From the NCBI GenBank assembly GCA_022448315.1, contig JAKVCA010000016.1:56684-120683 (forward strand): DNA of 64,000 nucleotides. Direction: 5' to 3'. The position numbers and the translations under genes were made by a program. The notes under the pieces were generated by a model, which ran no database searches, was not told the origin of the DNA, and saw only the letters and a list, made by a program, of their open reading frames with translations. This DNA comes from Pirellulaceae bacterium (GTDB taxonomy: Bacteria > Planctomycetota > Planctomycetia > Pirellulales > Pirellulaceae). Positions 5,429 to 63,016 of this stretch are shown here, in pieces (within the stretch, counting starts at the first letter, position 1; the number at the start of each line of letters is the position of its first letter).

Positions 5429-8256
5429 TCGCATTCACCCCAGTTTGGGCCGCTTTTGGTATCGACTTTCAGTGGAACGGCCAGTTCGTAGACCTCGGAC
5501 ATGGCTTTGATCACCTCATCGCGGAGTTCGTTTGCGTCCTCGCGATGCACCTCGAAGAGGAGTTCGTCGTGGATCTGGAGTAGGAGTCGTGCCCGAAACG
5601 GCTTTTGCTCCAACATGTCGTAGACCTTGAGCATGGCAAGCTTGATCAAGTCGGCTGCCGAGCCTTGAATGACTGTGTTGATGGCGATTCTCTCCGAGCC
5701 ATTGCGTGAAGCTCCTCGCTTGGCTCGAGGGCGAACCCCGTCGATCGGTCGATGTCGTCCCAGGATGGTTTTGATTTTGCCGTGAGCGACAGCATCATCA
5801 AGGGTCTGCTCCATGAAATCTTGAACACTCGGGTAGCGCGCAAAATAAGTCTCGATGAACTCCGCAGCTTCTTCCTGAGGAATGCCAAGCGACTTGGAGA
5901 GTCCAAAAGCGCCTTGCCCGTAAATGATGCCAAAATTGATCGCCTTCGCTTTGCGACGCATTTCGCTGGTAACCGCCGGCAATTCAACCCCTGCCACTTC
6001 AGCCGCGACTTTGGCGTGAATGTCAGTATCATTGTGGAAAGCTTCGATCAGCTGTTGATCTTGAGAGAAGTGAGCGAGGACTCGCAATTCGATCTGAGAA
6101 TAGTCCGCCGCCAAAAGTAACCAGTCGGGTTCGCCGGGTATGAAAGCCCTTCTTATCGCTCTTCCGGTTTCGGTTCTGACGGGGATGTTCTGCAGATTCG
6201 GATCTTTCGAACTTAAGCGACCGGTCGCGGCAACGTCCTGCATGAATGAAGTATGAATGCGTCCCGTCACGGGGTGGATAAGTTCCGGGAGTGCATCGAC
6301 GTAGGTGTTTCGAAGTTTCGTGTCCTGTCGGTATTCGATCAGCCGTTTTGGCAAGTCATGAAGATTGGCCAATTCGGTGAGCACTTCCACATCGGTGCTC
6401 GGCCCCGTCTTCGTCTTCTTGATGACAGGCAGTTGCAGCTCCTCAAAAAGAACTTTGGAGAGTTGGATTCGGGAATCGATATTGAACTCACGACCCGCCA
6501 GTTCGTAGATGTTGTCAACATGGTCTTCGATACGATCGGTCAGTTCCTGCCTCAAGGTATCGAGGACCTGCTGGTTCACGCAGATGCCATTGAATTCCAT
6601 TTCGGCCAAAACGCGTATCAGCGGCATCTCCACATTGGTGAAAAGTTCGTAAAGACCTTGCTGTTTCAGTTTCTCTTCGAAAATCTCTCGTAGGCGGCAG
6701 GGAATGTCAGCGTCTTCTGCTGCGTAGGGCGTGACCAGTTCAACAGCAACTTCGTCCATGCGTTTTTGTGACTTGCCCGTACCGATCAGCTCTTTGATTT
6801 TGATCGTTTCATGTTGGAAGTATCGAAGCGCGATGTCGTCGATGCTGTGGTTGCGTTGCCCCGAATCGAGTAGATAGTCCGCCACCATCGTGTCAAAGAG
6901 CTGTCCTTTGACTTCGAGCCCAGCACCTCGCAGGACAACCATGTCATATTTTAAATTCTGCCCGATTTTCTCGTATTCGTCGGAGCTTAGTAGCGATTGG
7001 ACTCGCTCAAGCACATCGTTGGCGTTCAAGCAGGGGTCGCCGACGGGCGCCTTGACTGGAATGTAGTAGGCCCTACCTTCGTTCCAGCAAAGCGATATGC
7101 CAACGAGGTCCGCATGTCTTGGGGAGGTGGAGGTCGTCTCGGTGTCGAAAACAACCCTTTTGATTGCCTTCGCGGAACGCAGGACGTCGTCGAGAGCGTC
7201 CAGATCTGAAATCAGTTCATAATCGGCTTCCCACTCCGGGGGTGGGTTCGCGACGGAGCTTGGACCGAGACCCGATAAATGTGCTAGACGTTCGGGAAGA
7301 CTGCGAAAGCCAAGTTCTTTGCATTGGACCAGAGCAGCTTCAACGTTGTAATAGTCGGTCCGACCCTGTTGCCAATCAATCTCGATGGGAACCTCAGGAT
7401 CGAGTCTCACCAGTTGGCGACTTAATGCGGCGGCGGCCTGTCCGTTCTCAAGATTTTCTTTGCGTTTCTTACCGGAAACCTCGTCAAGATTACTGAAAAC
7501 CCCTTCGAGCGTTTCAAATCTCTGGATCAGGTCCGCTGCGATTTTGGGACCGATCAGTGGAACTCCCGGCACATTGTCAACCGGATCTCCAACCAGTGCC
7601 TGGAAATCGACGACCTGATCTGGACGAATGCCCCAGTCACCTTCGAGGTCTTTTTCGTCGTAGATCCGAGCTTTCCTGATGTTGTAAAGTTTGACCGAAG
7701 GTGAGATCAGCTGGCGGCAATCTTTGTCATTGGTGACAAGGTAACACGTCCCACCGAGGTCAGATGTCAATTTCGCCATCGTGGCGAGAATGTCATCGGC
7801 CTCAAAACCATCAAGGTCCAAAATCGGCATCTCAAGTGTACCGAGGAGTTCTCGAATCTTGGAAATCTGACCGCGTAGGTCGACTGGCATCTCGTCGCGA
7901 TTGGCCTTGTAAGTGTCGGTAAGCTTGTGTCTGAATGTTGGGCCAGGCAAATCGAAGGCGCAAAACAGATAGTCGGGCTGGCAGCGTTCCAGAAGATCGA
8001 GAAGATCACGAGTGAAGCCATGGACTGCTCCAACCGGTTCACCTCTAGGAGACGTCATGTTCGCCCCCGATAGCGCATGAAAAACTTGATAGATCAAGGC
8101 ATGGGCGTCAACAACGTAGACCGTCTTTCCCCGCAAGTCCGTCACCGTCTCGGTGCACCGTTCAAGAGTTGTTTCCACGTTCGTCTGCGAGGCTTCGGGA
8201 GACGGTGAGGTAGTCAAATCCGCAGCAAATAATTCCGTCTGGATTTTTTCGTTCAT
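5425..8256 (-). CDS. polA: DNA polymerase I
   Basis: Repair and Okazaki-fragment polymerase with all three classic domains in about 943 residues. The 5'-nuclease domain starts near residue 45 (VVDAHALIY, D50). The 3'-5' proofreading exonuclease keeps its DEDD residues: D371 and E373 in FDTET, D438 in KYDMVV, Y511 and D515 in YAAEDAD. The polymerase domain has motif A (D718, ADYSQIELR), motif B (R767, K771, Y779) and motif C (H896-D897-E898). Proofreading is therefore predicted to be intact, unlike in many bacterial Pol I with degenerate exonuclease. The ATG at 8256 is taken as start; a TTG at 8328 would add 24 residues with no domain content. The gene is divergent from the membrane protein at 8652. 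Confidence 0.97.
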   Translation of the reverse strand: MNEKIQTELFAADLTTSPSPEASQTNVETTLERCTETVTDLRGKTVYVVDAHALIYQVFHALSGANMTSPRGEPVGAVHGFTRDLLDLLERCQPDYLFCAFDLPGPTFRHKLTDTYKANRDEMPVDLRGQISKIRELLGTLEMPILDLDGFEADDILATMAKLTSDLGGTCYLVTNDKDCRQLISPSVKLYNIRKARIYDEKDLEGDWGIRPDQVVDFQALVGDPVDNVPGVPLIGPKIAADLIQRFETLEGVFSNLDEVSGKKRKENLENGQAAAALSRQLVRLDPEVPIEIDWQQGRTDYYNVEAALVQCKELGFRSLPERLAHLSGLGPSSVANPPPEWEADYELISDLDALDDVLRSAKAIKRVVFDTETTSTSPRHADLVGISLCWNEGRAYYIPVKAPVGDPCLNANDVLERVQSLLSSDEYEKIGQNLKYDMVVLRGAGLEVKGQLFDTMVADYLLDSGQRNHSIDDIALRYFQHETIKIKELIGTGKSQKRMDEVAVELVTPYAAEDADIPCRLREIFEEKLKQQGLYELFTNVEMPLIRVLAEMEFNGICVNQQVLDTLRQELTDRIEDHVDNIYELAGREFNIDSRIQLSKVLFEELQLPVIKKTKTGPSTDVEVLTELANLHDLPKRLIEYRQDTKLRNTYVDALPELIHPVTGRIHTSFMQDVAATGRLSSKDPNLQNIPVRTETGRAIRRAFIPGEPDWLLLAADYSQIELRVLAHFSQDQQLIEAFHNDTDIHAKVAAEVAGVELPAVTSEMRRKAKAINFGIIYGQGAFGLSKSLGIPQEEAAEFIETYFARYPSVQDFMEQTLDDAVAHGKIKTILGRHRPIDGVRPRAKRGASRNGSERIAINTVIQGSAADLIKLAMLKVYDMLEQKPFRARLLLQIHDELLFEVHREDANELRDEVIKAMSEVYELAVPLKVDTKSGPNWGECD

Positions 8257-8651
8257 AAGTTGAGTGGACCTGTTCTCTGCCGGACTTAGGTCAATTCTTG
8301 ATGGAGGCGTCACCACGGCGGGGGCCAAAAGGATCTTGCCATTTATGGTTTGACGTTCGGGTAGGAAAAACCTTCATTAACATATCGCAGATTGAATAGA
8401 CCGGCACACCCGACCGGAGAAAACCCTCTCTGAGGTGAAGAAGAGCAAAGCGTTTTTATGAGTTTTTCGAAATGCCTGTTCGGGAGCACGGCAGAGGAAC
8501 CTTGGTTTTTATTTCTTTGTTCTTTAAACTGGTCACTCAGGAGGTCGCCGCAGGTTGCATTGTTCGAGTGGACGAGGTTGACTTTCCAAAGCAAAGTCTC
8601 GGGCACCGCTTGTCCGTTCGATGCGCCACCGATTCAAGACGGACAACAACC
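8257..8651. promoter_or_regulatory. divergent intergenic region between polA and the 8652 gene
   Basis: About 395 bases separating two divergent starts, so it should carry both promoters. A TTGACG hexamer occurs at 8351-8356 on the plus strand, but no good -10 lies at the right distance. No gene or repeat was recognised. Confidence 0.4.
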
Positions 8652-9206
8652 ATGTCAAAGCAAGCCGCTGCCATATTTTGGATTTCTTTTCTCAGTGGTA
8701 TAGCAGGATTGGCGGTGGCTTACAGTCTCTGGGTGGAGCCAGAATCAACATCCCTGGAAGTCGCAACGGATTCAGGAGTTGCCCAAGATGATGTGCCTGT
8801 CAGTGAAGGAGGGCAGGGGGCGTTTGCCGATGAATCCACCGGTAGCGATGACTTTGCCGTGTTTGGCTTTATGATGAGCAGCGATTGGTTGGATCCTCAG
8901 TTGGGATTGGGTATGGCCCTGTTGGGATTGGTTGCATTTTGGACCGCGTGGCATGGCGCGGCGGTCTCTATGGCAGCTGGAACCGCAGCAACAGACGCAT
9001 TTTACGGTCTGATTTCTGCAACCTTCCTCTGGGGTGCCTTTGCGATTCCTATTCCCGCGATGTTCTGGTTTTTGTTGCAGCCAATGCCCGCGAATCTCGA
9101 GGAGTTGGCTGCTTATTCTGCGGTCGCAGCGGTCGGCGGATGGCAGTTGGGGTTCTGGTTAGCACGTCCTTGGGCGGCGAAAAACGTTTCTTTAGACGCC
9201 CAGTAG
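8652..9206 (+). CDS. membrane protein of unknown function
   Basis: A 184-residue protein not recognised by family. An N-terminal membrane segment (AAAIFWISFLSGIAGLAVAY, residues ~5-24) is followed by an acidic linker (residues ~28-70) and three further hydrophobic segments near residues 80-105, 118-140 and 150-170. The topology is therefore about four membrane passes. The ATG at 8652 begins directly before the first helix; a longer reading from 8472 would add 60 residues with unrelated composition and is rejected. It appears monocistronic, with 316 bases and a strong promoter before the next gene. Confidence 0.7.
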   Translation: MSKQAAAIFWISFLSGIAGLAVAYSLWVEPESTSLEVATDSGVAQDDVPVSEGGQGAFADESTGSDDFAVFGFMMSSDWLDPQLGLGMALLGLVAFWTAWHGAAVSMAAGTAATDAFYGLISATFLWGAFAIPIPAMFWFLLQPMPANLEELAAYSAVAAVGGWQLGFWLARPWAAKNVSLDAQ

Positions 9207-47142: not shown

Positions 47143-50100
47143 ATGGCCATCGCGAGGAAAGATCGCCCCGATTCGCGAGAGCGGCGGCACAAACACCGGC
47201 TTTATCGATACAGGATCTGGGCCATAGTTCTGGGCGCATTGCTGCTTTGGTCCGCTCCGTCGATCGTTTCCAGAACCGCTTTGCTTGGCGTCTTCATCAA
47301 TGGGCTCACCAGCGATATGCCGGGCCATGTCGAATATGAATCTGCATCTCTTGGGTGGTTCAGACAAGCCGAAATTCGCGGACTACGATTTCTGGATGAT
47401 GCTGGGCAGTGGGTTGCCAAGGTCGAATCCGTTCGTCTTCAAAAAAATCTATGGCAACTCCTTTGGTCTAGAAGTGATATCGGCGGCATTCGACTGGAAA
47501 GACCCCAACTTCGAGTCTCGGTCGAGGAATCAACAAGCAATGTTGAGCGACTTTTTTCCCCCCTTATTCCTGAGAGAAGCGAAGGTGCAGCACTTCAGTA
47601 TCGGGTGGATATTCTCGATGGTGCCGTGATCCTGACCAACCCTTTGGCAGACGCTCAGGTTCAAGCCAACGTGGTGGAGATCGATAAGATTCAGTGCGGT
47701 TTTGAGTCGGGTGAATCGCAAAAATTTACCCTTACCGCACGAATTTGGCAGGACCTTGAGACGTCAAAAAGTGGGAGCTTGGCATTCCGTTCGGAGGCGT
47801 CGGGCTCTATGGGACCCCATCGCATCTCAGGGGAATTCATTGACATGGACCTCGCTCTGCTCACTCATGTTGCCCAAAGGCTAGGCTGGGAGATGTCCGC
47901 AGAGGGACGAGTGTCGGGAAACTTGGAAGGTCAAATCAGTCGTTCAGGGAGTGAAAGCGATTGGCGCTGGAGTGAAGTGTCAGGGCAAGACTTTGCACTG
48001 CACTGGCCCGAGGTTTTGAAGGATGACCGACCTCGTTTGGAGAAATTTGAATCCCGAGGTCGTATCAAGTTGTCAGGCTCAGAGATTCAAGTTGAAGGCC
48101 TGCACTTCGATTCCAAAATGGTATCCGTTGACGCCAGTGGCACGATGGATCTCTCAGACGTGAGTCAACTGTGGAACTCCAAAGACCCCGTGGGGTTGGA
48201 AGCAAGTGGCGAACTGGATTTGGCTGCGGTAACCACCGCGTTTCCAAGCTCATTGAAGTTGCGAAAAGGCGTTGAGGTCGATTCGGGGAAATTGCAGTGG
48301 CTGCTGCGGAGTCAACATCAGTCTGGACAGCGGCGGTTGTTTGCAAACCTGTCCACCGGCATGCTGAGTCTGACGAATCAAGGGCAGTCCATGATGTTGA
48401 GTCAACCGCTGAGCGTAAGTGCTGCGGTGATAAACAGGAACGGGAAAATTGACCTTGAATTTGTGTCTTGCAAGTCACCCTTCTTGCGGATTGACGGCCG
48501 AGGAACACCGAACGAGGGGAGTATCACCCTTGCCGGTAACTTCAACCAGTTGCAGGAGAACCTCAGGCAAGTTTTTGCCATTGACCACTTGGAATTGGGT
48601 GGCGCATTGACCGGAAAGGTCAATTGGGTGGGTCGTCGTTCGTCAACGAGTGACCAAGGAGCAGAGACCGGAGCTTGGACGCCGGCAATTGTTCATTTGA
48701 ATGGCGACTTGGCGGTACGAGATCTTCGTGTGACGTGGCAAGGACGCCCCGTGCTCACGGAGCCTGACTTGAAGATTGCCTGCAAAAGCCAATTCAAACC
48801 CGACTCGCAATTCGAGGAAGTCTTGGCGCAGAGTGCGTTGCAGTTGGTTGCCGATGATGACCGTTTGGAAATTTGGTCAGACACTGGCATGAGCAAAGCA
48901 AATCAGCCAGAGCAGGGTGCGGTTGCCACACCAAAGTTCGCCCTGACGGGCAATCTCCAGCGGTGGTCGAATCGGCTTGGCATCGGATTTCTGCTAACCG
49001 AAATTGAGCATGAAGGCGACATCGAGGCGACGGGACAACTCAACTGGTCACCAGATTCTTTCGGTCTTTCGGATGCTTCAGTGACCCTGAGGTCACTGAA
49101 GATTCGGAGCCAAGACATGGAAATCCAGGAAGGACTCGTGGTTGGCAATTGTTCGCTTGCTTACGACCGGAATGCAAGGTTCCTTAAAATTAATGCTCTG
49201 ACTTTGGCATCGACTTCCGCGAGCCTTCGAGTGGATCAGATGGTCATTCCGACTCTCGGTTCACCTGAGACCATGCAAGGACAGTACGCGGTTCGTGCTG
49301 ATCTTGGTCGCGTCTCCCAGTGGATGAAGGATTCCAAAAATGCCGCATGGATGGTTGGCGGACAACTAGAGGGGAATGGTCAACTTTCCATGCAGTCAGT
49401 TGGCGCGGATGGGGAGCCACTCGGCTTTGATTTCAATGGTAGGGTCAAGGATCTCTCCGTGTCGGAGGCGATCATTTCCGAGTCCGGCGATGTGCGTTCA
49501 AGGCCCTCATGGACATGGGAAGAACCGGTTGTCGCGGTTGCTTTTCAGGGTACCTATGACTTTAAGAACCCGTGTTTGAACCTTCCGCTCGGAGAGGTTG
49601 TCGGAAGCAATCAACGGGTCAGTGCAAGCGGAAGTTTGTCCTTGCAAGAAGGTGAATGGTGGGTGGACGCTTCTGGGAGTTGGCGAGGCTTAGGTCACCC
49701 TTGGTTCAAAATGTTTTCCCCCTGGTTGGGTGAAGATGCTGAACTCAAGGGTGAGTTTGACGAGCCGTTTTTCATAGAAGGGCCGTTGGCTGGATTGGGT
49801 TTTGAGGGGCAGGTCGACCACGTCAGACCAGTGGGTTGGTCCGAAGTGAGTCTGTCAGGAGAAGCGGGGCTCGCATGGCAGTCGGGTCGGGTGCTGGGAA
49901 TGCCCTTTGGTACTGGCGCGATTCGGCCCGTTCTTTCAAAGCAAAGAATCGATTTTGGAGAAGTCCATATTCCGTTATCGCAGGGAGATGTTCGGCTTCA
50001 AGCGGGCGTTCAATTCGACAAAGATCGTACGACTATTCAAGTATCAAAGGGGAGGATCCTAGATCGAGTTGTGCTCTCGCCAGAACTTAGCCGACGCTGG

Positions 50101-50706
50101 TTGAAATATCTGTCACCTTTGCTTGCCCAGGTGACACAAAGTGAGGGGGTGATTAGCCTCGAGTTACAACCAACTTCTATCCCACTGCAAGAATTGGATT
50201 TGGCTGAGGGCAGTGGTGTTTTCGAAGTTGAGCGAGCTGTGGTAGGGCCTGGACCGCTGGCCATGCAGTTGCTGACTCTCATTTCGCAAATTCAAAGCAT
50301 GCTGCTGCAGCGGCCCGCGCAGAGTCTGAGAAACGACGCATGGATCGAATTTCCGAAACAGAAGGTTGCCTTTCAAATCGAGCGAGGACGCGTTTACCAT
50401 GATCAAATGCACTTGAGATTGGCAGGTGCCACGGTTTTGACGACGGGGAGTGTCGGCCATGACGAAACCATTGATCTTGTCATGAGTATTCCGCTTGAGG
50501 ACCGCTGGCTTGGGAATCGCCCGGAGCTTGCCGCTTTCCGTGGCCTCTCGTTGGCCCTCCCAATACGAGGAACGTTGTCCAGCCCAAAGATTGACTCCAG
50601 TGCACTGAAGGACCTTTCCAAGCAACTCGTTCGACAAGCGGCAGAACAGCTGATTGATCAACAGCTGCGGAGAGGGCTTGAGAGTCTTCTGGGAGGCGAC
50701 CAGTAG
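47143..50706 (+). CDS. AsmA/TamB-like large envelope protein
   Basis: A 1187-residue protein with a basic N-terminus, one membrane helix at ~25-45 (YRIWAIVLGALLLWSAPSIV) and a very long beta-rich periplasmic body. Repeats of the AsmA/TamB/DUF748 kind are visible: DIGGIRLERPQLRVSVEES near the start, ILDGAVILTNPLAD, SGTMDLSDVSQLW, LSLTNQGQSMMLSQPL, and near the C-terminus GRVYHDQMHLRLAGATVLTTGSVGHDE, LPIRGTLSSPKID, which is the classic AsmA C-terminal pattern. Proteins of this class bridge inner and outer membranes and move phospholipids. The ATG at 47143 has a perfect AAGGAGG. It is followed by an MBL-fold gene after 59 bases. Confidence 0.86.
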   Translation: MAIARKDRPDSRERRHKHRLYRYRIWAIVLGALLLWSAPSIVSRTALLGVFINGLTSDMPGHVEYESASLGWFRQAEIRGLRFLDDAGQWVAKVESVRLQKNLWQLLWSRSDIGGIRLERPQLRVSVEESTSNVERLFSPLIPERSEGAALQYRVDILDGAVILTNPLADAQVQANVVEIDKIQCGFESGESQKFTLTARIWQDLETSKSGSLAFRSEASGSMGPHRISGEFIDMDLALLTHVAQRLGWEMSAEGRVSGNLEGQISRSGSESDWRWSEVSGQDFALHWPEVLKDDRPRLEKFESRGRIKLSGSEIQVEGLHFDSKMVSVDASGTMDLSDVSQLWNSKDPVGLEASGELDLAAVTTAFPSSLKLRKGVEVDSGKLQWLLRSQHQSGQRRLFANLSTGMLSLTNQGQSMMLSQPLSVSAAVINRNGKIDLEFVSCKSPFLRIDGRGTPNEGSITLAGNFNQLQENLRQVFAIDHLELGGALTGKVNWVGRRSSTSDQGAETGAWTPAIVHLNGDLAVRDLRVTWQGRPVLTEPDLKIACKSQFKPDSQFEEVLAQSALQLVADDDRLEIWSDTGMSKANQPEQGAVATPKFALTGNLQRWSNRLGIGFLLTEIEHEGDIEATGQLNWSPDSFGLSDASVTLRSLKIRSQDMEIQEGLVVGNCSLAYDRNARFLKINALTLASTSASLRVDQMVIPTLGSPETMQGQYAVRADLGRVSQWMKDSKNAAWMVGGQLEGNGQLSMQSVGADGEPLGFDFNGRVKDLSVSEAIISESGDVRSRPSWTWEEPVVAVAFQGTYDFKNPCLNLPLGEVVGSNQRVSASGSLSLQEGEWWVDASGSWRGLGHPWFKMFSPWLGEDAELKGEFDEPFFIEGPLAGLGFEGQVDHVRPVGWSEVSLSGEAGLAWQSGRVLGMPFGTGAIRPVLSKQRIDFGEVHIPLSQGDVRLQAGVQFDKDRTTIQVSKGRILDRVVLSPELSRRWLKYLSPLLAQVTQSEGVISLELQPTSIPLQELDLAEGSGVFEVERAVVGPGPLAMQLLTLISQIQSMLLQRPAQSLRNDAWIEFPKQKVAFQIERGRVYHDQMHLRLAGATVLTTGSVGHDETIDLVMSIPLEDRWLGNRPELAAFRGLSLALPIRGTLSSPKIDSSALKDLSKQLVRQAAEQLIDQQLRRGLESLLGGDQ

Positions 50707-54436: not shown

Positions 54437-54970
54437 ATGAAGCTTGAAGCCCGACTGCAACGTATCGAATTGATCCTCTCCGACGTCGATGGTGTTCTGA
54501 CAGATGGCGGTCTTTTTTATGACCAACAGGGGAGCGAACTGAAGAAGTTTCACGTGCGCGATGGGCTGGGCATCAAACTTTGGCAACGGGCGGGATATCG
54601 ATTTGGGTTAGTGACGGCGCGCACTTCAAACATCGTCAGAATGCGAGCCAATGAACTTGGGTTGGACCTCGTGCGGCAAGGTCACGAAAATAAATTGCCT
54701 ATCGTCGAAGAAATTCTTGGCGAGCTGGGCTACTCCGCGGAGCAACTCTGTTTCATTGGGGATGATTTGACCGATTTGGCTTGCCTGCAGTTTGCAGGAG
54801 TGGGTGCAACAGTCAGTGATGGCGCAACAGAGTTAAAGGACGAAGCAGATCTCGTCACCAGCCAACCCGGAGGACGAGGCGCGGTTCGAGAGTTGATTGA
54901 AGTTTTGTTGAAAAGCCAACATCGCTGGCAGGAATTGATGAGTCGGTACCACCAGCCCCATCGATCATGA
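54437..54970 (+). CDS. kdsC: 3-deoxy-D-manno-octulosonate 8-phosphate phosphatase
   Basis: HAD-family C0 phosphatase that releases Kdo from Kdo-8-phosphate, a precursor of the LPS inner core. In 177 residues: motif I SDVDGVLTDG (D16 nucleophile, D18), motif II VTART, motif III K near ~86, motif IV IGDDLTDLA. The short length without a cap domain is diagnostic for KdsC-type tetramers. It is followed at 69 bases by the LptC/LptA-like gene, the same order as kdsC-lptC-lptA in proteobacteria. Confidence 0.93.
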   Translation: MKLEARLQRIELILSDVDGVLTDGGLFYDQQGSELKKFHVRDGLGIKLWQRAGYRFGLVTARTSNIVRMRANELGLDLVRQGHENKLPIVEEILGELGYSAEQLCFIGDDLTDLACLQFAGVGATVSDGATELKDEADLVTSQPGGRGAVRELIEVLLKSQHRWQELMSRYHQPHRS

Positions 54971-55039
54971 TCGCTGCGGCCAGAGTTTGTGATTTTAACG
55001 AGTGAGTCGTGTTGAACCTGCCAAACGAACGGATTTGTT

Positions 55040-58000
55040 GTGGCTCAAAAACTGAAGAACGCGGCCGGAACTTTCGCCGTTGTCCTGCTTGGGGGCTGGC
55101 TTTATTCGTTGCTGGTGGTGCCTTTTGTTGAGGGAGGGGCGGTTAAATCCGTCGGTCCCCCAATTCAGGAAGTCGATCTTCCTGAAGCCCAACTTGATCC
55201 TCTGGTGGACCTTGGACCCTGGTTGCCTCCCGGATGTCCTCAAGAGAGCCTGAAGAAGACCATCGCGTTCCAACGCGGGAGTGTGCATTTCAAAGACTGG
55301 AGTGTCAGTGATGATGGTCATCTGGAAGCCAAGCCATTCGTCATGGTTTTGAGTCAGTCTAACGATGAAATGGAGGGCGATCCCGAATTGACGCCCCCTC
55401 TGGTCCTGTTGGCCCGTGAGGGTGCGGTTCTTGAATTCGATCCTCCCTTTACTAGCGGGCTGGAGCCAGCAGGTCGACTTGTGAAAGCACTGCTCAGGAA
55501 AGAAGTGATCATTCATCGCACGGCCAGCCCCGGCAGCGAGGATGGTCTCGAGATTCGGACAAGTAACGTCCAGATCGAGCCGAATCGAATTTCCACTCTG
55601 AATGACGTCGATTTTCGTATGGGAGCTCATGAAGGGAGCGGCAGTAATCTGGAAATCGTGCTGGCGACAGACCGAGCTGCGGAAAAGAATCAGCTGCCAG
55701 ATGTGCGGGGTATTCGCTCTCTCGAGCTTGTGCATCTGCACCGATTGAGGATCGCGGCGACACCTCAGGCCGAAATACCAGTGGACAACCGCCGTAACGC
55801 TGAAGGCCCTGCCGTGGGCGACATCGAAGTGCGTTGTGATGGTTCGTTTACCTGTCGCCTCGACGAGCAGGTCGCCACCTTCAAAGACAATGTACGGATC
55901 GTTCATTCAAGCGGAGAGGGGGCGCGAGTATCGGATTCACTGGCCTGTGATATTTTGAAGATTCTATTTCATCACCCTGCATCACAGTCGGTTCTTTCAG
56001 CAGATCGCCGAAGACTTGATGGCGAGACATCCAGTCAGTCATCTTCTGAGGGCGTGGGGGCTCAAAGCGAATTCAATGTTCGAAGATTGATCGCTCAAGG
56101 TAAGCCGGCCATCCTTCATTCACCTCTCCGTGAACTTCACGCGAAATCGGAAATCATCAGCTATGACCCGGTCCAGCGCAGTGTCTCGATGAGCGACACA
56201 AAGCGAGTTGTGGTCAAGCATCAGGATCTTGTTTTCGAAGCTCCGCTCTTCAACTACGAATTTGTTGAGGGGAATCAGCTGGGAATTGCGGTGGCCGAGG
56301 GACGCGGACGAGTGGTTCGTGCTGCTGCGGGCAATGGCCCTGGTTTCGAAATGGAATGGTCCGAACAACTGCAATTGCGTCCCCACGAAGGATTGCAGTG
56401 TCTGTCTTTTTATGGTTCGCCAAAGCTCGCGGTTTCAACAGGAGAAAAATTCACATCCGATGAGCTGCATGTCTGGCTATCCGAAGAGAAGGCAGAGGCC
56501 TTGGCCCCGCAAGGTGGGCCAAAGCCAACCAGAATACAACTTGTAAAACTATTGGCAGAGAACAGTGTTTCCATCGACTCTCCTCAACTTGGTGGGAGCA
56601 CCGCTCGGCTAGAGGTCTTCTGGAATCGCGACTTTGTTCGCACGGGTGAACAGAGTGCGGCCGGGGCAGGCGATTCCATCGGAACGCCGGCAGGAGGAGA
56701 TTCAACGATCATTGCCTCGCGACCCAACGAAGCAGGTCCGCGAAAACTGATGGTCAGCGGGGAGTTTGTCCGGGCACGATTGAGGCCTGAGAACCAGACG
56801 TTCACGGTGGAGGAAATCACCGTTGATGGAAACGCACGCCTCTACGAACAACCTCACCCTGAGCATCTCAGCGAGATGCAAAAACCGTTTTCCATTGCAG
56901 GTCAGTTACTCCAGGTTAATTCGCTTGGGTCGGATCGCTTTTCGGCCTATGTGGTCGCCGAAGAGGGGGCACCCCCAGTCATCGAGGACGCGGGCGGTCC
57001 GCAAAACGTCCCCATCATGGTCGCGCAGGGCATGGAGTTGTACGGGGCTCAGATGCAACTTGACCAGGTGGAGCAGCGAATGTGGATGGATGGCTCGGGC
57101 TTCGCCCGATTGCAGCCCTTTACGAAGCAGCAGGGAGCCCAACGTCTGACGGGCCCCATGATCGTTCGTTGGAAAGGAGGCTTGGACTTTGACGGAGAGT
57201 GGATTCGCGTACGTGAAAACGTCCAGATCGGTCTCCAAACAGTGGACGCCGAGGGAGAGCTTTCAACGGTCGAAATCCAGAGCGAGGGGTTGGACCTGCG
57301 GTTGGCCCAGAAAGTCGACTTGGCTGGCGGGGGTCGGGGTTCGGTGAAGTCGGAGACAAACTCGAATACTTCTACAAACTCCGGTCAAGACAACATTGAG
57401 ACGCTGATTCTGCAAGGTCAGGTTTGGGTGACCCATTGGGAAACGGACAAGCAGGGAAATACGAAGGCAGTGGATCGGCTATTTGCGCTGGGCGCTGGGC
57501 TCCATTATCCAACCGGAAATCTGATTGCCGGCGGGCCAGGATTCACACAGTCCATTCGGACACAAAACGGCCTCAGTCAGATTTCCGGACCCATTGTCGA
57601 TACCCAAGATTCCGCAATTGGTTCTGGGCGAACGCATGTCCGAATTGAGTTCAACCGAGATATCAAAGGCAATATTTATCAAAAGCACTTGGCATTTAAT
57701 GGTGACGTTCGTGTCTATTCCGTGGAGGTTCCCAGTTGGGACTCATGGTTGGAGCGCGAGGAACTTCAGCAACGCTCTGATCTTGTCTTCATGAAATGTG
57801 ATCAATTGACGACGGATGAAGTCATGATCCAGCGAAACGCTCCAATGTCTCTGCTGGTGCAGGCCACGGGAAACGCGGGATTGCGTGGGCGGGGCATTGA
57901 GGCAAGAGCTACCCGCATGACCTACGATCAAAGTAAGGATCTACTCACGCTGGTTGCTGAGGGCAGGGACGATGCTGAGTTGACTCGGCAAACCCAACCC

Positions 58001-58159
58001 GGTACGAATCCCGATCAGGTTCGTGCCCGAGAAATCAAATTTTGGCGAGGGACCAACCAGGTTGAAGTCTCAGGCATCAGCAGCCTATCGTCCGGTGGCC
58101 CATTTGGAAGGCAACCTTCATCAAAACCACCAAACAGCCCTCAAGGGCGTGAAAGATAA
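55040..58159 (+). CDS. giant LptC/LptA-like LPS-transport protein
   Basis: A 1039-residue protein. After a GTG start (55040) and one membrane anchor (~11-30, TFAVVLLGGWLYSLLVVPF) it shows an LptC-like segment at ~100-215 (VLLAREGAVLEFDPPF, GLEIRTSNVQIEPNRISTLNDVDF) and several OstA/LptA-like beta-jellyroll repeats: FTCRLDEQVATFKDNVRIVH, PAILHSPLRELHAKSEIISYD, DLVFEAPLFNYEFVEGNQLG, later ATRMTYDQSKDLLTLVAEGR. Normal LptC and LptA are each under 210 residues, so this looks like one protein with a chain of such units forming a longer lipid-carrying bridge. kdsC directly upstream supports an LPS context. No lptB or lptFG is in the window. Confidence 0.8.
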   Translation: MAQKLKNAAGTFAVVLLGGWLYSLLVVPFVEGGAVKSVGPPIQEVDLPEAQLDPLVDLGPWLPPGCPQESLKKTIAFQRGSVHFKDWSVSDDGHLEAKPFVMVLSQSNDEMEGDPELTPPLVLLAREGAVLEFDPPFTSGLEPAGRLVKALLRKEVIIHRTASPGSEDGLEIRTSNVQIEPNRISTLNDVDFRMGAHEGSGSNLEIVLATDRAAEKNQLPDVRGIRSLELVHLHRLRIAATPQAEIPVDNRRNAEGPAVGDIEVRCDGSFTCRLDEQVATFKDNVRIVHSSGEGARVSDSLACDILKILFHHPASQSVLSADRRRLDGETSSQSSSEGVGAQSEFNVRRLIAQGKPAILHSPLRELHAKSEIISYDPVQRSVSMSDTKRVVVKHQDLVFEAPLFNYEFVEGNQLGIAVAEGRGRVVRAAAGNGPGFEMEWSEQLQLRPHEGLQCLSFYGSPKLAVSTGEKFTSDELHVWLSEEKAEALAPQGGPKPTRIQLVKLLAENSVSIDSPQLGGSTARLEVFWNRDFVRTGEQSAAGAGDSIGTPAGGDSTIIASRPNEAGPRKLMVSGEFVRARLRPENQTFTVEEITVDGNARLYEQPHPEHLSEMQKPFSIAGQLLQVNSLGSDRFSAYVVAEEGAPPVIEDAGGPQNVPIMVAQGMELYGAQMQLDQVEQRMWMDGSGFARLQPFTKQQGAQRLTGPMIVRWKGGLDFDGEWIRVRENVQIGLQTVDAEGELSTVEIQSEGLDLRLAQKVDLAGGGRGSVKSETNSNTSTNSGQDNIETLILQGQVWVTHWETDKQGNTKAVDRLFALGAGLHYPTGNLIAGGPGFTQSIRTQNGLSQISGPIVDTQDSAIGSGRTHVRIEFNRDIKGNIYQKHLAFNGDVRVYSVEVPSWDSWLEREELQQRSDLVFMKCDQLTTDEVMIQRNAPMSLLVQATGNAGLRGRGIEARATRMTYDQSKDLLTLVAEGRDDAELTRQTQPGTNPDQVRAREIKFWRGTNQVEVSGISSLSSGGPFGRQPSSKPPNSPQGRER

Positions 58160-58354: not shown

Positions 58355-61300
58355 ATGACGCACAGCAACATCAAGCGAAGGTCGCTTTTGGCCGTCGTTT
58401 TGACCACCTTCATTTCGCTCCTCAACGGTGATTCAACGGCAGCTCCCCAGTCGGTGACGAAGCCGGGTGAGGATTGGACCATCATTTCCAGGATTCTCCA
58501 ACAACACTGTGTGGCCTGCCATAATCACGAAACCCGTGAGGGCGGATTGTCATTATCGACTGGGGCGGAGTTTCTTCAGGGTGGAGACGAGGGAAGTGTT
58601 TATGACGCCGAACATCCACTGCAGAGTCGGTTTTTGGAGGTCGTGACTCCTGTAGATGGCGTCGCGGAGATGCCTTATGAGAAGGCACCACTAAGTCAGT
58701 TGGAACGCGAGGAGTTGAAACGCTGGCTCAGTAAAGGCGCTCTTTGGCCCGAAGATGTCATTCTTGAAGTCGGTCCCGTATCGGATACGGATTGGTGGTC
58801 ATGGCAACCCGTAAGCCGACCCGGCATCCCCATCTCAGCTTCAGACTCAAGATGGCCTCGTCATGCGATTGACACCTTTATCTTGGCCAAGCTGCAGGAC
58901 GAGGAGCTGACACCGTCTGACGAAGCGAGTGCAGAACACCGAATTCGACGTGTCTACTTTGACTTGATCGGACTTCCGCCCAGTGCCGAGGAGATTCAGG
59001 AGTTTGCCGCGGATACCGACCCAAGAGCGTTTGAGAAACTTGTCGATCGTCTACTCGCATCTCCTCGGTATGGTGAGCGTTGGGGGCGGCACTGGCTGGA
59101 TGTCGTCCATTACGGCGACACGCATGGGTATGACAAAGATAAGCCCAGGCCCAACGCTTGGCCCTATCGCGACTATGTCATCCGTTCGTTCAATCAAGAT
59201 CGTCCTGCGGCCGAGTTTGTCGCTCAGCAACTTGCGGGAGATGTTCTTCCGACAGACGATCCCGAAAGTGTTTTGGGAACGGGCTTCATCGCCGCGGGAC
59301 CTTGGGATTTCATTGGTCAGGTTGAAGTTCCTGAATCCAAGATCGATGGCAAGATCGCAAGGCATCTTGATCGGGATGACATGGTGCGAACGACCTTGGA
59401 GTCGTTCTGTAGCATCACGGTGGGATGTGCCCGGTGTCATCATCACAAGTTCGATCCTATCAGTCAGGCCGATTACTATCAGTTACAAGCCGTGTTTGCC
59501 GCGGTCGATCGCGCCGACCGGCCATTTGACCTAGACCCGGCCGTTGTCGATCAAAGACGAGACGTTGAAAATCGAATGGCTGCGTGGCAGAAACGCAACG
59601 ACCAATTGGAACAGGAAATTGGCCGGAAATATGGTGCTTCGGTCAACGACATCGAAAAAGAGATTGATCAATTACTGACGCCTGCAGATGAGGCCAAACC
59701 GGAGTTCGGTTTTCACAGTGAGATTGCGAAGACGCCAAAGCAAGAGAAATGGGTTCAGCTCGACCTCGGTGAAGTGCGGGCGGTTTCCAAAGTTCAGCTG
59801 GTGGGATGCCATGACACGTACGCCAATATCGGAGCGGGTTTTGGTTTTCCCGTGAGATTTCGCATTGAGCTATCCAATGATGCCAACTTTAAGGAGGGCG
59901 TCCGTGTCGTTGTCGCGCGGACCGATCGCGATTTTCTAAATCCGGGTGTCGTTCCAATTGCGTTCTCTTTTGAGACGTCGCCAGCTCAATACGTTCGAGT
60001 TACCGCCACGCAATTGGCCGAGCGGGCAAACGACTATATTTTTGCGTTGGCTGAGTTGCAGGTCTGGGATGAGAAAAATCAGCTGATTTCGTCCGGCAGC
60101 AAGGTAACCAGCCTCGATTCCATTGAGGCGCCTGAGAGATGGTCGCGAGCAAATCTGATTGACGGTTATTGGTATGGAAGTTGGTTGGAGGAAGAGCTGC
60201 AGGTCAAATTGCGGCAACTTGCGTTGAACCGAACGGAACGGTGGGAGAAGATTTCACAAAGTCCGCTCCACCGGCAAAAATTGGAATTGCAGAGTGAGTA
60301 CGAGCGACTTGAGAAGGAAAAGTCGGCAATCCCGGCTCCACAAATGGTCTACGCTGGAACGACGAAATTTTCACCTCAAGGAAATTTCAAAGCCACTCAG
60401 GGCAAACCAAGAACCATCCATGTTCTGAATCGAGGCAACGTCTTGTCGCCTGGTGAACAGGTTCATCCTGGTCCGGTGACGTCTTTGGGAGACTTGGGGA
60501 TTGCCTTTGGTGGAGCGGAACAACACGATGAAAGCGATGCTCGAGTGGCTTTGGCCTCTTGGATTACTCATGCAGACAATCCGTTGTTTTGGCGGTCCAT
60601 GGCAAATCGAGTTTGGGTCTATCACTTCGGCCGTGGTCTGGTCGACAGCCCCAATGATTTCGGTCGTATGGGCCAGTTGCCATCACACCCCCAGCTTTTG
60701 GACTGGCTTGCGAGTGAATTGCGAGATTCGGGTGGCAGCATAAAGCGACTGCATCGAATGATCTGTACCAGTTCGACGTACCAGCAAAGCTCGCGCTATC
60801 GTGAGAGAGCTGTCGCAGTCGACGGTTCAAATCGGTGGTACTGGAGGATGAATCGAAGGCGATTGGAGGCGGAAGCGATTCGGGATGCAACGCTCGCGGC
60901 GGCCGGAAGGTTGGATCTGAAAATGTACGGTCCGGGTTTCCAGGATTTTGTGATCGAAAAGCCGGAACACTCACCCCATTACGAGTACCACCTGTTTGAT
61001 CCCTCGAATCCTAGCAGTCATCGACGTGCCGTGTATCGTTTCATTGTTCGATCACAGCAACAGCCCTTCATGACGACACTTGATTGTGCAGATCCGTCGA
61101 TGCAAGTGGATAAACGAAATGAGACGATCACGCCGCAGCAATCTCTCGCGTTGTTGAACAACGCGTTTATGCTGGAGATGGCGAGCGAATTTGCAGAAGA
61201 TATCCAGCAGACTTCTGGCAATCCGGAATCCGAGGTGGAACAACTCTATCTTCGGGCATTGGGGCGCTTTCCCACCGAAGATGAGGTGAGAACGATTGTT

Positions 61301-61378
61301 CCGTACATGCGTCAGCACGGATTGGAAAATGTTTGCCGACTGGTCTTTAATTTGAACGAGTTTTTGTTTGTGGATTAG
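58355..61378 (+). CDS. planctomycete cytochrome PSCyt1-DUF1549-DUF1553 (PSD1) protein with discoidin-type insert
   Basis: A 1007-residue secreted protein: signal segment ~9-30 (SLLAVVLTTFISLLNGDSTA), PSCyt1 haem motif CVACH at 52, DUF1549 (~165-375; FDLIGLPPSAEEIQEF, ERWGRHWLDVVHYGD) including a second CARCH at 358 followed by HHKFDPIS, and DUF1553 (~700-1000; WRSMANRVWVYHFGRGLV, NDFGRMGQLPSHPQLLDWLA, QSLALLNNAFM). Between the DUFs an F5/8 type C (discoidin) domain is inserted at ~455-572 (KWVQLDLGEVRAVSKVQLVG, YVRVTATQLAERANDYIFAL), suggesting carbohydrate binding. It starts at ATG 58355 and is followed by the partner DUF1501 gene, the usual tandem arrangement in planctomycetes. Confidence 0.92.
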   Translation: MTHSNIKRRSLLAVVLTTFISLLNGDSTAAPQSVTKPGEDWTIISRILQQHCVACHNHETREGGLSLSTGAEFLQGGDEGSVYDAEHPLQSRFLEVVTPVDGVAEMPYEKAPLSQLEREELKRWLSKGALWPEDVILEVGPVSDTDWWSWQPVSRPGIPISASDSRWPRHAIDTFILAKLQDEELTPSDEASAEHRIRRVYFDLIGLPPSAEEIQEFAADTDPRAFEKLVDRLLASPRYGERWGRHWLDVVHYGDTHGYDKDKPRPNAWPYRDYVIRSFNQDRPAAEFVAQQLAGDVLPTDDPESVLGTGFIAAGPWDFIGQVEVPESKIDGKIARHLDRDDMVRTTLESFCSITVGCARCHHHKFDPISQADYYQLQAVFAAVDRADRPFDLDPAVVDQRRDVENRMAAWQKRNDQLEQEIGRKYGASVNDIEKEIDQLLTPADEAKPEFGFHSEIAKTPKQEKWVQLDLGEVRAVSKVQLVGCHDTYANIGAGFGFPVRFRIELSNDANFKEGVRVVVARTDRDFLNPGVVPIAFSFETSPAQYVRVTATQLAERANDYIFALAELQVWDEKNQLISSGSKVTSLDSIEAPERWSRANLIDGYWYGSWLEEELQVKLRQLALNRTERWEKISQSPLHRQKLELQSEYERLEKEKSAIPAPQMVYAGTTKFSPQGNFKATQGKPRTIHVLNRGNVLSPGEQVHPGPVTSLGDLGIAFGGAEQHDESDARVALASWITHADNPLFWRSMANRVWVYHFGRGLVDSPNDFGRMGQLPSHPQLLDWLASELRDSGGSIKRLHRMICTSSTYQQSSRYRERAVAVDGSNRWYWRMNRRRLEAEAIRDATLAAAGRLDLKMYGPGFQDFVIEKPEHSPHYEYHLFDPSNPSSHRRAVYRFIVRSQQQPFMTTLDCADPSMQVDKRNETITPQQSLALLNNAFMLEMASEFAEDIQQTSGNPESEVEQLYLRALGRFPTEDEVRTIVPYMRQHGLENVCRLVFNLNEFLFVD

Positions 61379-61558
61379 TTCGGTATGACAGAGGTGGCCG
61401 CGACGATTCACCGATGCCTGAACCGTAATTTTTTGGGTGGTGAACGGCGTCTGCTGTCGATGTTTGGCGGAGGCGTGCGTTCATTTCCGCTTGGTTTTTT
61501 AGACTCGCACATTTAAAAATTGCGTGATCGGATCGATCGCAACGAAGGAGCACTTTTG

Positions 61559-63016
61559 ATGCAACCCTACCTGTCTCGACGGAAGTGGTTAGAGCAATCC
61601 GCAGGGGGATTTGGAGGTCTTGCTCTGGGCGCCATGATGCAGGGGGAGTCTCTCGCGCGCGAAGAAGCGGTGAGTCAGATCATTCATCACCCGCCGAAAG
61701 TGAAGCGTGTCGTTCAGCTTTTTATGGCTGGGGCGGCGAGCTCTTTGGACATGTTTGATTTCAAACCCGCGTTGGTCAAACATCATGGGGAGCCCTCCGA
61801 CTTTGGCGAAAAAGTGGAGGCGTTTCAAAATGGTCTGGGGCCATGGATGAAGTCACCATGGGAATTTCAAGCCTATGGTGAATGTGGGAAACAACTCAGT
61901 TCGATTGTTAGCGAGCTCGGTTCGTGCGTTGACGATATGGCGTTTGTTCACAATATGATTGGTAAGACGGGCGTTCATAGTTCGGCGACATATCTTCAGG
62001 CGACAGGTTTTCAAACCCCTGGATTTCCAGGTGCCGGGTGCTGGATCAGTTATGCACTTGGCAGTGAGAACGAAAATTTGCCGACGTTTGTGGTGCTGCC
62101 AGATCATCGGGGGTTTGCGTCAAACGGTCCCAAAAATTGGGATAGTGCTTTTCTGCCCGCCCTGCATCAGGGGACCACTATCTTTCCCGGCACTGATCCT
62201 CCGATCCAGGACCTATTTCCGCAGAATCGCCGGTTCACGACGACTCAGGGTGATGCGGAAGGACAAAACCTTCTTGAAGTTCTCAATCGCGAACATATGA
62301 ACGAACGAGCTGGCGATTCTCGCCTTGAGGCCCGTATTCGGAGTTATGAACTGGCGGCGAAGATGCAGCTTGCGGCGCCGGAGGCCCTTGATCTTCGGGA
62401 CGAGCCCAGCTATCTCCTCGAACAGTATGGAGTTCCGGAAGACCCTCGTGAGTATCCGGCTGAGATCAACCCGGAAGAAGAAGCGGAATACTTTGGGAGA
62501 AAGTGCTTGGTCGCGCGCAGGTTGCTGGAGCGTGGAGTGCGTTTTGTCCAGATCTGGTCCGGCAATGATAACGGTTTTCCGCGACGTAATTGGGATTCTC
62601 ATGAGAACATCAAGCGGGATCACGGGCCATTGGCGTCGGGGATGGCTCGAGGCGCCTCGGCGTTGATTCGTGACTTGAAACAACGGGGGATGCTTGAGGA
62701 TACACTCATCCTGTGGACCACCGAATTCGGTCGGATGCCGTCTTCTCAGGGAGGGAGCGGTCGGGACCACAATCCGTTTTGCTTTACGAATTGGTTGTGC
62801 GGTGGTGGAATCCGCGGGGGAGTCAGTGTCGGACCAAGTGACCAGTGGGGATTCAAGCCATTGGATCGAGAGCATCCAACCACGGTTTACGATATCCACG
62901 CGACGATCATGCACCTGCTGGGTATCGATCATCAGCGACTTACCGTCAGGCATAATGGCATCGATCGAAGGTTGACCGACGTTCACGGGCGAGTCATGAA
63001 AGAGATCCTTGCCTAA
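61559..63016 (+). CDS. DUF1501 protein with twin-arginine signal
   Basis: A 485-residue secreted protein. The N-terminus SRRKWLEQSAGGFGGLALGAM is a Tat-type signal; the body carries the DUF1501 alkaline-phosphatase-superfamily pattern: VKRVVQLFMAGAASSLDMFD, DMAFVHNMIGKTGVHSSATY, VRFVQIWSGNDNG, WDSHENIKRDHGPLASGMARG, TLILWTTEFGRMPSSQGGSG, RDHNPFCFTNWLCGGG. These give the metal-binding Asp/His set. The ATG at 61559 has AAGGAG. Partner of the preceding PSD1 gene; both are predicted periplasmic and to act on the same unknown, probably polymeric, substrate. Confidence 0.9.
   Translation: MQPYLSRRKWLEQSAGGFGGLALGAMMQGESLAREEAVSQIIHHPPKVKRVVQLFMAGAASSLDMFDFKPALVKHHGEPSDFGEKVEAFQNGLGPWMKSPWEFQAYGECGKQLSSIVSELGSCVDDMAFVHNMIGKTGVHSSATYLQATGFQTPGFPGAGCWISYALGSENENLPTFVVLPDHRGFASNGPKNWDSAFLPALHQGTTIFPGTDPPIQDLFPQNRRFTTTQGDAEGQNLLEVLNREHMNERAGDSRLEARIRSYELAAKMQLAAPEALDLRDEPSYLLEQYGVPEDPREYPAEINPEEEAEYFGRKCLVARRLLERGVRFVQIWSGNDNGFPRRNWDSHENIKRDHGPLASGMARGASALIRDLKQRGMLEDTLILWTTEFGRMPSSQGGSGRDHNPFCFTNWLCGGGIRGGVSVGPSDQWGFKPLDREHPTTVYDIHATIMHLLGIDHQRLTVRHNGIDRRLTDVHGRVMKEILA

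Follow-up and report, generated by a model that had tools for sequence, protein, structure and literature searches.

A long protein encoded behind kdsC in Pirellulaceae as a probable covalent LptC-LptA bridge

The kdsC locus and its conservation

The 64,000-nt stretch of contig JAKVCA010000016.1 of a Pirellulaceae bacterium (GCA_022448315.1) analyzed here, referred to below as the window and used for all coordinates, carries the gene kdsC and, behind it, an open reading frame (ORF) for a 1039-residue protein, the two being separated by 69 bases on the same strand (Table 1). Both ORFs lie where an earlier note on this DNA had placed them. The kdsC product matched TIGR01670 at 147.4 bits (cut-off 106.95) and the KdsC model NF007019 at 148.9 bits, the latter below the cut-off of 208. 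We consider it highly probable that the 1039-residue protein, called the bridge protein below, is a naturally occurring fusion in which LptC is joined to several jellyrolls of LptA type, i.e., a covalent LptC-(LptA)n bridge. The planctomycete bridge for lipopolysaccharide (LPS) appears to be a single long protein, whereas elsewhere it consists of separate LptC and LptA subunits. The kdsC-lptC-lptA order that had been recognized from the sequence, here condensed into a single anchored chain with jellyroll domains, is supported by the predicted models described below.

Table 1. Features of the kdsC-bridge locus; coordinates are positions in the window.
Feature	Position	Strand	Basis
kdsC, Kdo-8-phosphate phosphatase, 177 residues	54437..54970	+	TIGR01670, adjacency to bridge gene
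Probable LptC-(LptA)n bridge in one chain of 1039 residues, GTG start	55040..58159	+	Family matches, folds, conservation
Predicted membrane-spanning N-terminal helix (residues 2-25), anchor as in LptC	55043..55114	+	AlphaFold2, block pLDDT 80-92
Predicted LptC-like jellyroll, about residues 71-264	55250..55831	+	VIA structural alignment, hhalign
Predicted first LptA-like jellyroll, about residues 259-429	55814..56326	+	VIA on middle model, hhalign
Putative middle LptA-like stretches, residues about 366-503, 570-688, 718-815	56135..57484	+	hhalign profile only
Predicted C-terminal LptA-like jellyroll, about residues 845-1020	57572..58099	+	VIA, PF03968 at residues 922-999

When genome contigs were searched with the window protein as query, no relative was found, and two alignments proved too variable to serve as queries; the neighboring kdsC was used instead. 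The kdsC search of named genomes returned 80 loci. Among the kdsC loci having a bridge match, kdsC and the bridge gene were adjacent in 46 of 48; the remaining two were L110 (far-upstream start only) and L160, where an ORF with an LptC match intervenes. Alignment A4 comprised 34 of the 48 loci, the 14 omitted being contig-end pieces or more distant proteins, and alignment A1 comprised the window protein and 29 of the 34 aligned homologs, leaving out L015, L020 and L026 (stop codon in the match), L028 (part of the same protein as L077) and L021.

Conservation was followed in 60 genomes, namely the genome of the window and 59 relatives. A single-sequence search detected a match in 55 of them; at 26 of 30 loci from this search, the window locus included, the bridge gene immediately follows kdsC in the same orientation, and at the other four kdsC was not found within the available flank. 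A 30-row profile search recovered the family in 59 of the 60 genomes, among them all 53 with a completeness of 90% or more and a contamination of 5% or less, and the sole genome without a profile match (G024) is 78% complete. In 57 of the 59 matched genomes, the match falls within a single open frame, whose length ranges from 966 to 1313 residues (median 1058), and in G026 and G033 it is split across two contigs; six matched stretches of the profile search each contain one stop codon. Such conservation across relatives indicates that the frame is not a chance ORF.

Profile matches and predicted fold of the bridge protein

The bridge protein reaches the gathering score of PF03968 (LptA/LptD_N), with 24.5 bits versus 20.4 at residues 922-999. 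This single match is all that Pfam shows directly of repeats in the window protein, clear multiple matches being seen only in relatives. Profile-profile comparison was performed with LptC and LptA profiles derived from 10 proteobacterial loci, which had been picked by position and size and of which three were later family-checked. Using hhalign, the LptC profile aligned with residues 91-210 (probability 62) and the LptA profile with residues 247-426 (94.8), 366-503 (86), 570-688 (72.5), 718-815 (35) and 873-1012 (93), a sixth LptA stretch reaching 8.9. As null controls, reversal of the profile and eight shuffles of its columns gave a maximum of 1.2, and reversed windows did not exceed 2.3 with LptA or 10.1 with LptC. 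The several OstA-like repeats claimed in the earlier note are thus supported by five LptA stretches. Moreover, in a windowed comparison residues 61-280 scored 44-54 with LptC and below 1.5 with LptA.

An AlphaFold2 model of the full protein was built from 35 sequences and showed a mean predicted local distance difference test score (pLDDT) of 78.6 and a predicted template modeling score (pTM) of 0.61. It consists of a helix at residues 2-25 followed by 59 strands, the last of which ends at residue 1017, the remainder being all-beta; the N-terminal anchor proposed before thus has its counterpart in the predicted helix. VIA structural alignment of the predicted model placed residues 79-239 on the LptC chain 4b54_B (Z 11.4, root-mean-square deviation (rmsd) 2.4 over 122 residues); other LptC chains were 6mit_C (Z 11.3, residues 71-264) and 3my2 (Z 11.2), and residues 1-231 aligned with the LptC chain 6mjp_C at Z 11.3 but with an rmsd of 18.2. 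Residues 845-1020 of the predicted model were superimposed on the LptA chain 2r1a_B (Z 13.0, rmsd 1.9, 124 residues). Furthermore, the middle of the protein (residues 241-856) was modeled alone with a pTM of 0.78, and residues 259-429 of this model matched the LptA chain 2r1a_D (Z 15.4, rmsd 1.7, 124 residues). Predicted strands run through most of the middle stretches; for residues about 430-845, which are covered by the full and the middle model only, the listed structural matches of both models were weak or had a large rmsd. Taken together, the structure prediction that had been suggested as a check yielded a predicted LptC fold and two predicted LptA folds lying far apart in the chain. As regards the continuous hydrophobic groove expected from that prediction, 51 of the 59 strands were tested for amphipathicity, the 8 strands of under 5 residues being left out: none of 2000 shuffles attained the observed sum, and 4 of the 51 strands were individually significant. 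The strands are therefore amphipathic as a set, which lends only indirect support to the putative groove.

In a Foldseek search, LptD and LptA rows mostly had probabilities of 0.9-1.0, and unrelated teneurins appeared at ranks 4, 8 and 11 with 0.33-0.41. LptD chains make up most of the top rows and residues about 618-832 weakly match the LptD barrel (Z about 6), as might be expected if the bridge protein were a paralog of LptD or an LptD with an N-terminal extension, but the predicted N-terminal membrane helix and the LptA-like C-terminus argue against this relationship, which we regard as very improbable. Identity with LptD was rejected because a distinct LptD ortholog is present in all 60 genomes, that of the window included.

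Partner genes, phylum-wide relatives and alternative readings

The earlier note had asked for lptB, lptFG and lptD in the genome, and LptB (contig C46, 323.9 bits, cut-off 240), two LptF/G permeases and LptD, a 1077-residue frame at G000:C83:77392-80421, are all encoded there. LptD was recovered in 60 of the 60 genomes by a family-specific profile versus 13 by Pfam LptD; despite its presence throughout, planctomycete LptD is mostly overlooked by the Pfam model. A PF04413 protein, which we take to be the Kdo transferase WaaA, lies on contig C65, and PF04413 was found in 57 of the 60 genomes. In at least G007, G018, G020 and G025, three LptF/G-like permeases each gave a long match, which suggests a second exporter or a paralog. 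It is an unlikely alternative that the bridge serves the intermembrane transport of some lipid other than LPS: LPS as cargo is our inference, and these additional permeases leave room for more than one exporter, but the bridge gene is paired with kdsC, and PF04413 and LptD accompany it in the numbers of genomes given.

Outside the Pirellulales, at eight loci (L128, L130, L131, L139, L140, L155, L156 and L158), kdsC is immediately followed by a single complete ORF that encodes 672-1314 residues and matches the LptC profile; by title, seven belong to Planctomycetota or one of its groups and L128 to an uncultured bacterium. At other planctomycete loci (e.g., L136, L146, L162 and L144) something else or a contig end follows kdsC. 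Nine proteins were scanned with Pfam, namely these eight and that of the Omnitrophota locus L145, where kdsC is followed by a 975-residue ORF (5936-8860 at that locus): LptC exceeded its cut-off in L128, L130 and L155 and LptD_N in L128, L130 and L156, LptC remained below cut-off in L131 and L139, and no match was obtained in L140, L158 and L145. The protein of L130, from Candidatus Anammoxibacter, has 718 residues and is likewise encoded behind kdsC. It scored 62.7 with NCBIfam LptC (equivalog cut-off 38) and 79.0 over three stretches with LptA TIGR03002 (equivalog cut-off 71.7), while the matches of the four other proteins scanned with it were below the cut-offs. Its gene position and domain order are those of the bridge protein, from which it differs by its LptC part with three LptA stretches and by being much closer to the family models.

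A census of 294 Planctomycetota genomes detected an LptC domain in 58, and 57 of the 58 LptC-containing frames have 303-1751 residues, the remaining one having 178 (median of the 58, 670). The extremes are the frame of 178 residues in G085:C55, which is of ordinary size, and that of 1751 residues in G292:C24. LptD_N shares the frame with LptC in 36 of the 58. The domain was not detected in 236 of the 294 genomes, and since the genome of the window is among them, a negative in this census says little.

A further alternative is that only the N-terminal part acts as LptC, the rest being a beta-repeat spacer, and that a separate, divergent LptA does the bridging. LptA-like frames outside the bridge do occur in some genomes, and the family searches of the genome of the window overlooked even the window's own domain. 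The two distant segments with predicted LptA folds (rmsd 1.7-1.9 over 124 residues), as well as the equivalog-level LptA matches that follow LptC within one chain in Candidatus Anammoxibacter, speak against this division of labor, to which we give little credence. With respect to separate lptC and lptA genes, whose presence would have contradicted the earlier note, none was detected in the genome of the window; the searches equally missed the window protein itself, and this absence is therefore weak evidence. In the set of 60 genomes, LptC was detected only once and fell within the bridge frame; LptD_N was found in nine genomes, lying within the bridge frame in eight of them and elsewhere in G028.

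The fusion of LptC with LptA-type jellyrolls is the reading for which gene order, the predicted anchor, the predicted LptC fold, two distant predicted LptA folds, the single conserved long frame and the Lpt partners speak jointly. Several observations weigh against it. The bridge protein misses the equivalog cut-off of LptA TIGR03002 (28.4 bits versus 71.7) and has no match to the LptC family models PF06835 and TIGR04409, and a profile search of solved-structure sequences returned LptA at E 0.081 and 0.42 only, an unrelated FabG row of the same search standing at E 0.75. Windows 421-560 and 821-1000 likewise match the LptC profile, with probabilities of 55-62, so that LptC and LptA are not sharply separable, and domain placement is uncertain because of the pTM of the full model. 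Moreover, lptB sits on a contig other than that of the bridge gene. LptA-like matches were also seen in a 966-residue frame that is neither bridge nor LptD (G028:C1:1774267-1774467, L059), weakly in a 152-residue frame (G037:C1:18012-18179, E 1.8e-4), and in apparently short frames of 169-248 residues in six of the 294 genomes (G068, G120, G133, G149, G164 and G193). G164 and G193 additionally hold LptC frames of 445 and 522 residues, and some lineages may thus mix fused and free LptA.

Other frames of the window lie on the plus strand around the locus. A 1187-residue protein (47143-50706) has a weak DUF748 match of 21.8 bits, under the 50-bit cut-off, and a homolog of it is also found near the bridge gene in G017; it is possibly another inter-membrane lipid carrier. 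At 58355-63016, a protein with PSCyt1, PSCyt2 and PSD1 domains is followed by a 498-residue ORF, and no link of these to the bridge gene was seen.

Comparison with known systems and proposed function

Seventeen loci of the kdsC search titled as other groups, with unnamed 'bacterium' records excluded, served as controls. LptB is encoded downstream of kdsC in 13 of these 17 and in none of the 48 bridge-matching loci, within flanks of 8 kb at maximum and in some cases shorter; in G038, LptB lies approximately 11 kb from the bridge gene. At five control loci, NCBIfam identified the two ORFs before LptB as LptC in all five and as LptA above cut-off in three (the proteobacteria L125, L151 and L164), LptA of the Firmicutes L159 and L163 scoring 46-49 bits. 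The bridge protein resembles LptC in its position behind kdsC, its predicted N-terminal membrane helix and the jellyroll that follows (Z 11.2-11.4 over 122-123 residues), but it runs on into several more jellyrolls, whereas the control LptC proteins have 183-192 residues. It resembles LptA in two segments with the predicted fold (Z 13.0 and 15.4) and in its five profile stretches, but is a 1039-residue chain with a predicted helix rather than a separate soluble single-domain protein. The repeats being joined to LptC, their number is fixed in the gene. The N-terminal domain of LptD matches in the same jellyroll region of the bridge, but LptD is a separate gene. An earlier study reported LptD in all planctomycete genomes then available (PMC3422733).

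Separate genes for LptA and LptC are listed in methanotrophic Verrucomicrobia (PMC10542722). In Veillonella parvula, the Mla system has been described as a lipid bridge that spans the envelope (PMC10665443); it belongs to another family (MlaD) and concerns phospholipids, its likeness to the bridge protein being one of idea only. The term 'LptCA' denotes a deletion allele where it occurs in the text of PMC9972910 and an LptC double mutant in that of PMC10208570. Among the matches listed from the open-licence PubMed Central literature, none was seen to describe LptC and LptA as naturally fused in Planctomycetes. The parts were already known; it is their covalent multi-repeat arrangement, widespread in the phylum, that appears to be new.

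Following this, we propose that the N-terminal helix and the LptC domain would seat the bridge in the LptB2FG exporter, which would extract LPS and push it through the LptC part into the run of jellyrolls of the same chain. The last LptA-like domain would then dock onto the N-terminal domain of LptD, which is encoded by a gene of its own. The groove would be continuous, and free LptA would not be needed. Strands in such a fold are spaced at about 0.48 nm, and 59 predicted strands in two sheets give a rough bridge length of approximately 14 nm. The adaptation to a wide periplasm proposed in the earlier note is not upheld: the estimated length fits an ordinary gap, and LptC-frame lengths vary across the phylum from about 300 to 1751 residues, leaving aside the one of 178. 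A specially wide periplasm is therefore not called for, and the modeled length suggests export sites of ordinary spacing.

In a survey, the Lpt system of Planctomycetes is called 'largely reduced' in the section concerned (PMC8871954), and the relevant portion of a soil study reports lptC in only one dominant family (PMC7989815). Both results may be due to LptC and LptA parts being fused and diverged below the standard models. A 2023 review states that it is not known how many LptA molecules make up the bridge (PMC10094684). Repeats fixed in the gene make bridge length and stoichiometry countable and testable. More tentatively, and with chances that we put slightly short of even, one covalent bridge may have replaced the assembled LptC-LptA chain in Planctomycetota, its repeat number being set by the gene and varying between lineages, as between the LptC with three LptA stretches in Candidatus Anammoxibacter and the longer chain in Pirellulales. 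Such a bridge would then serve as a molecular ruler of the intermembrane distance where LPS is exported.

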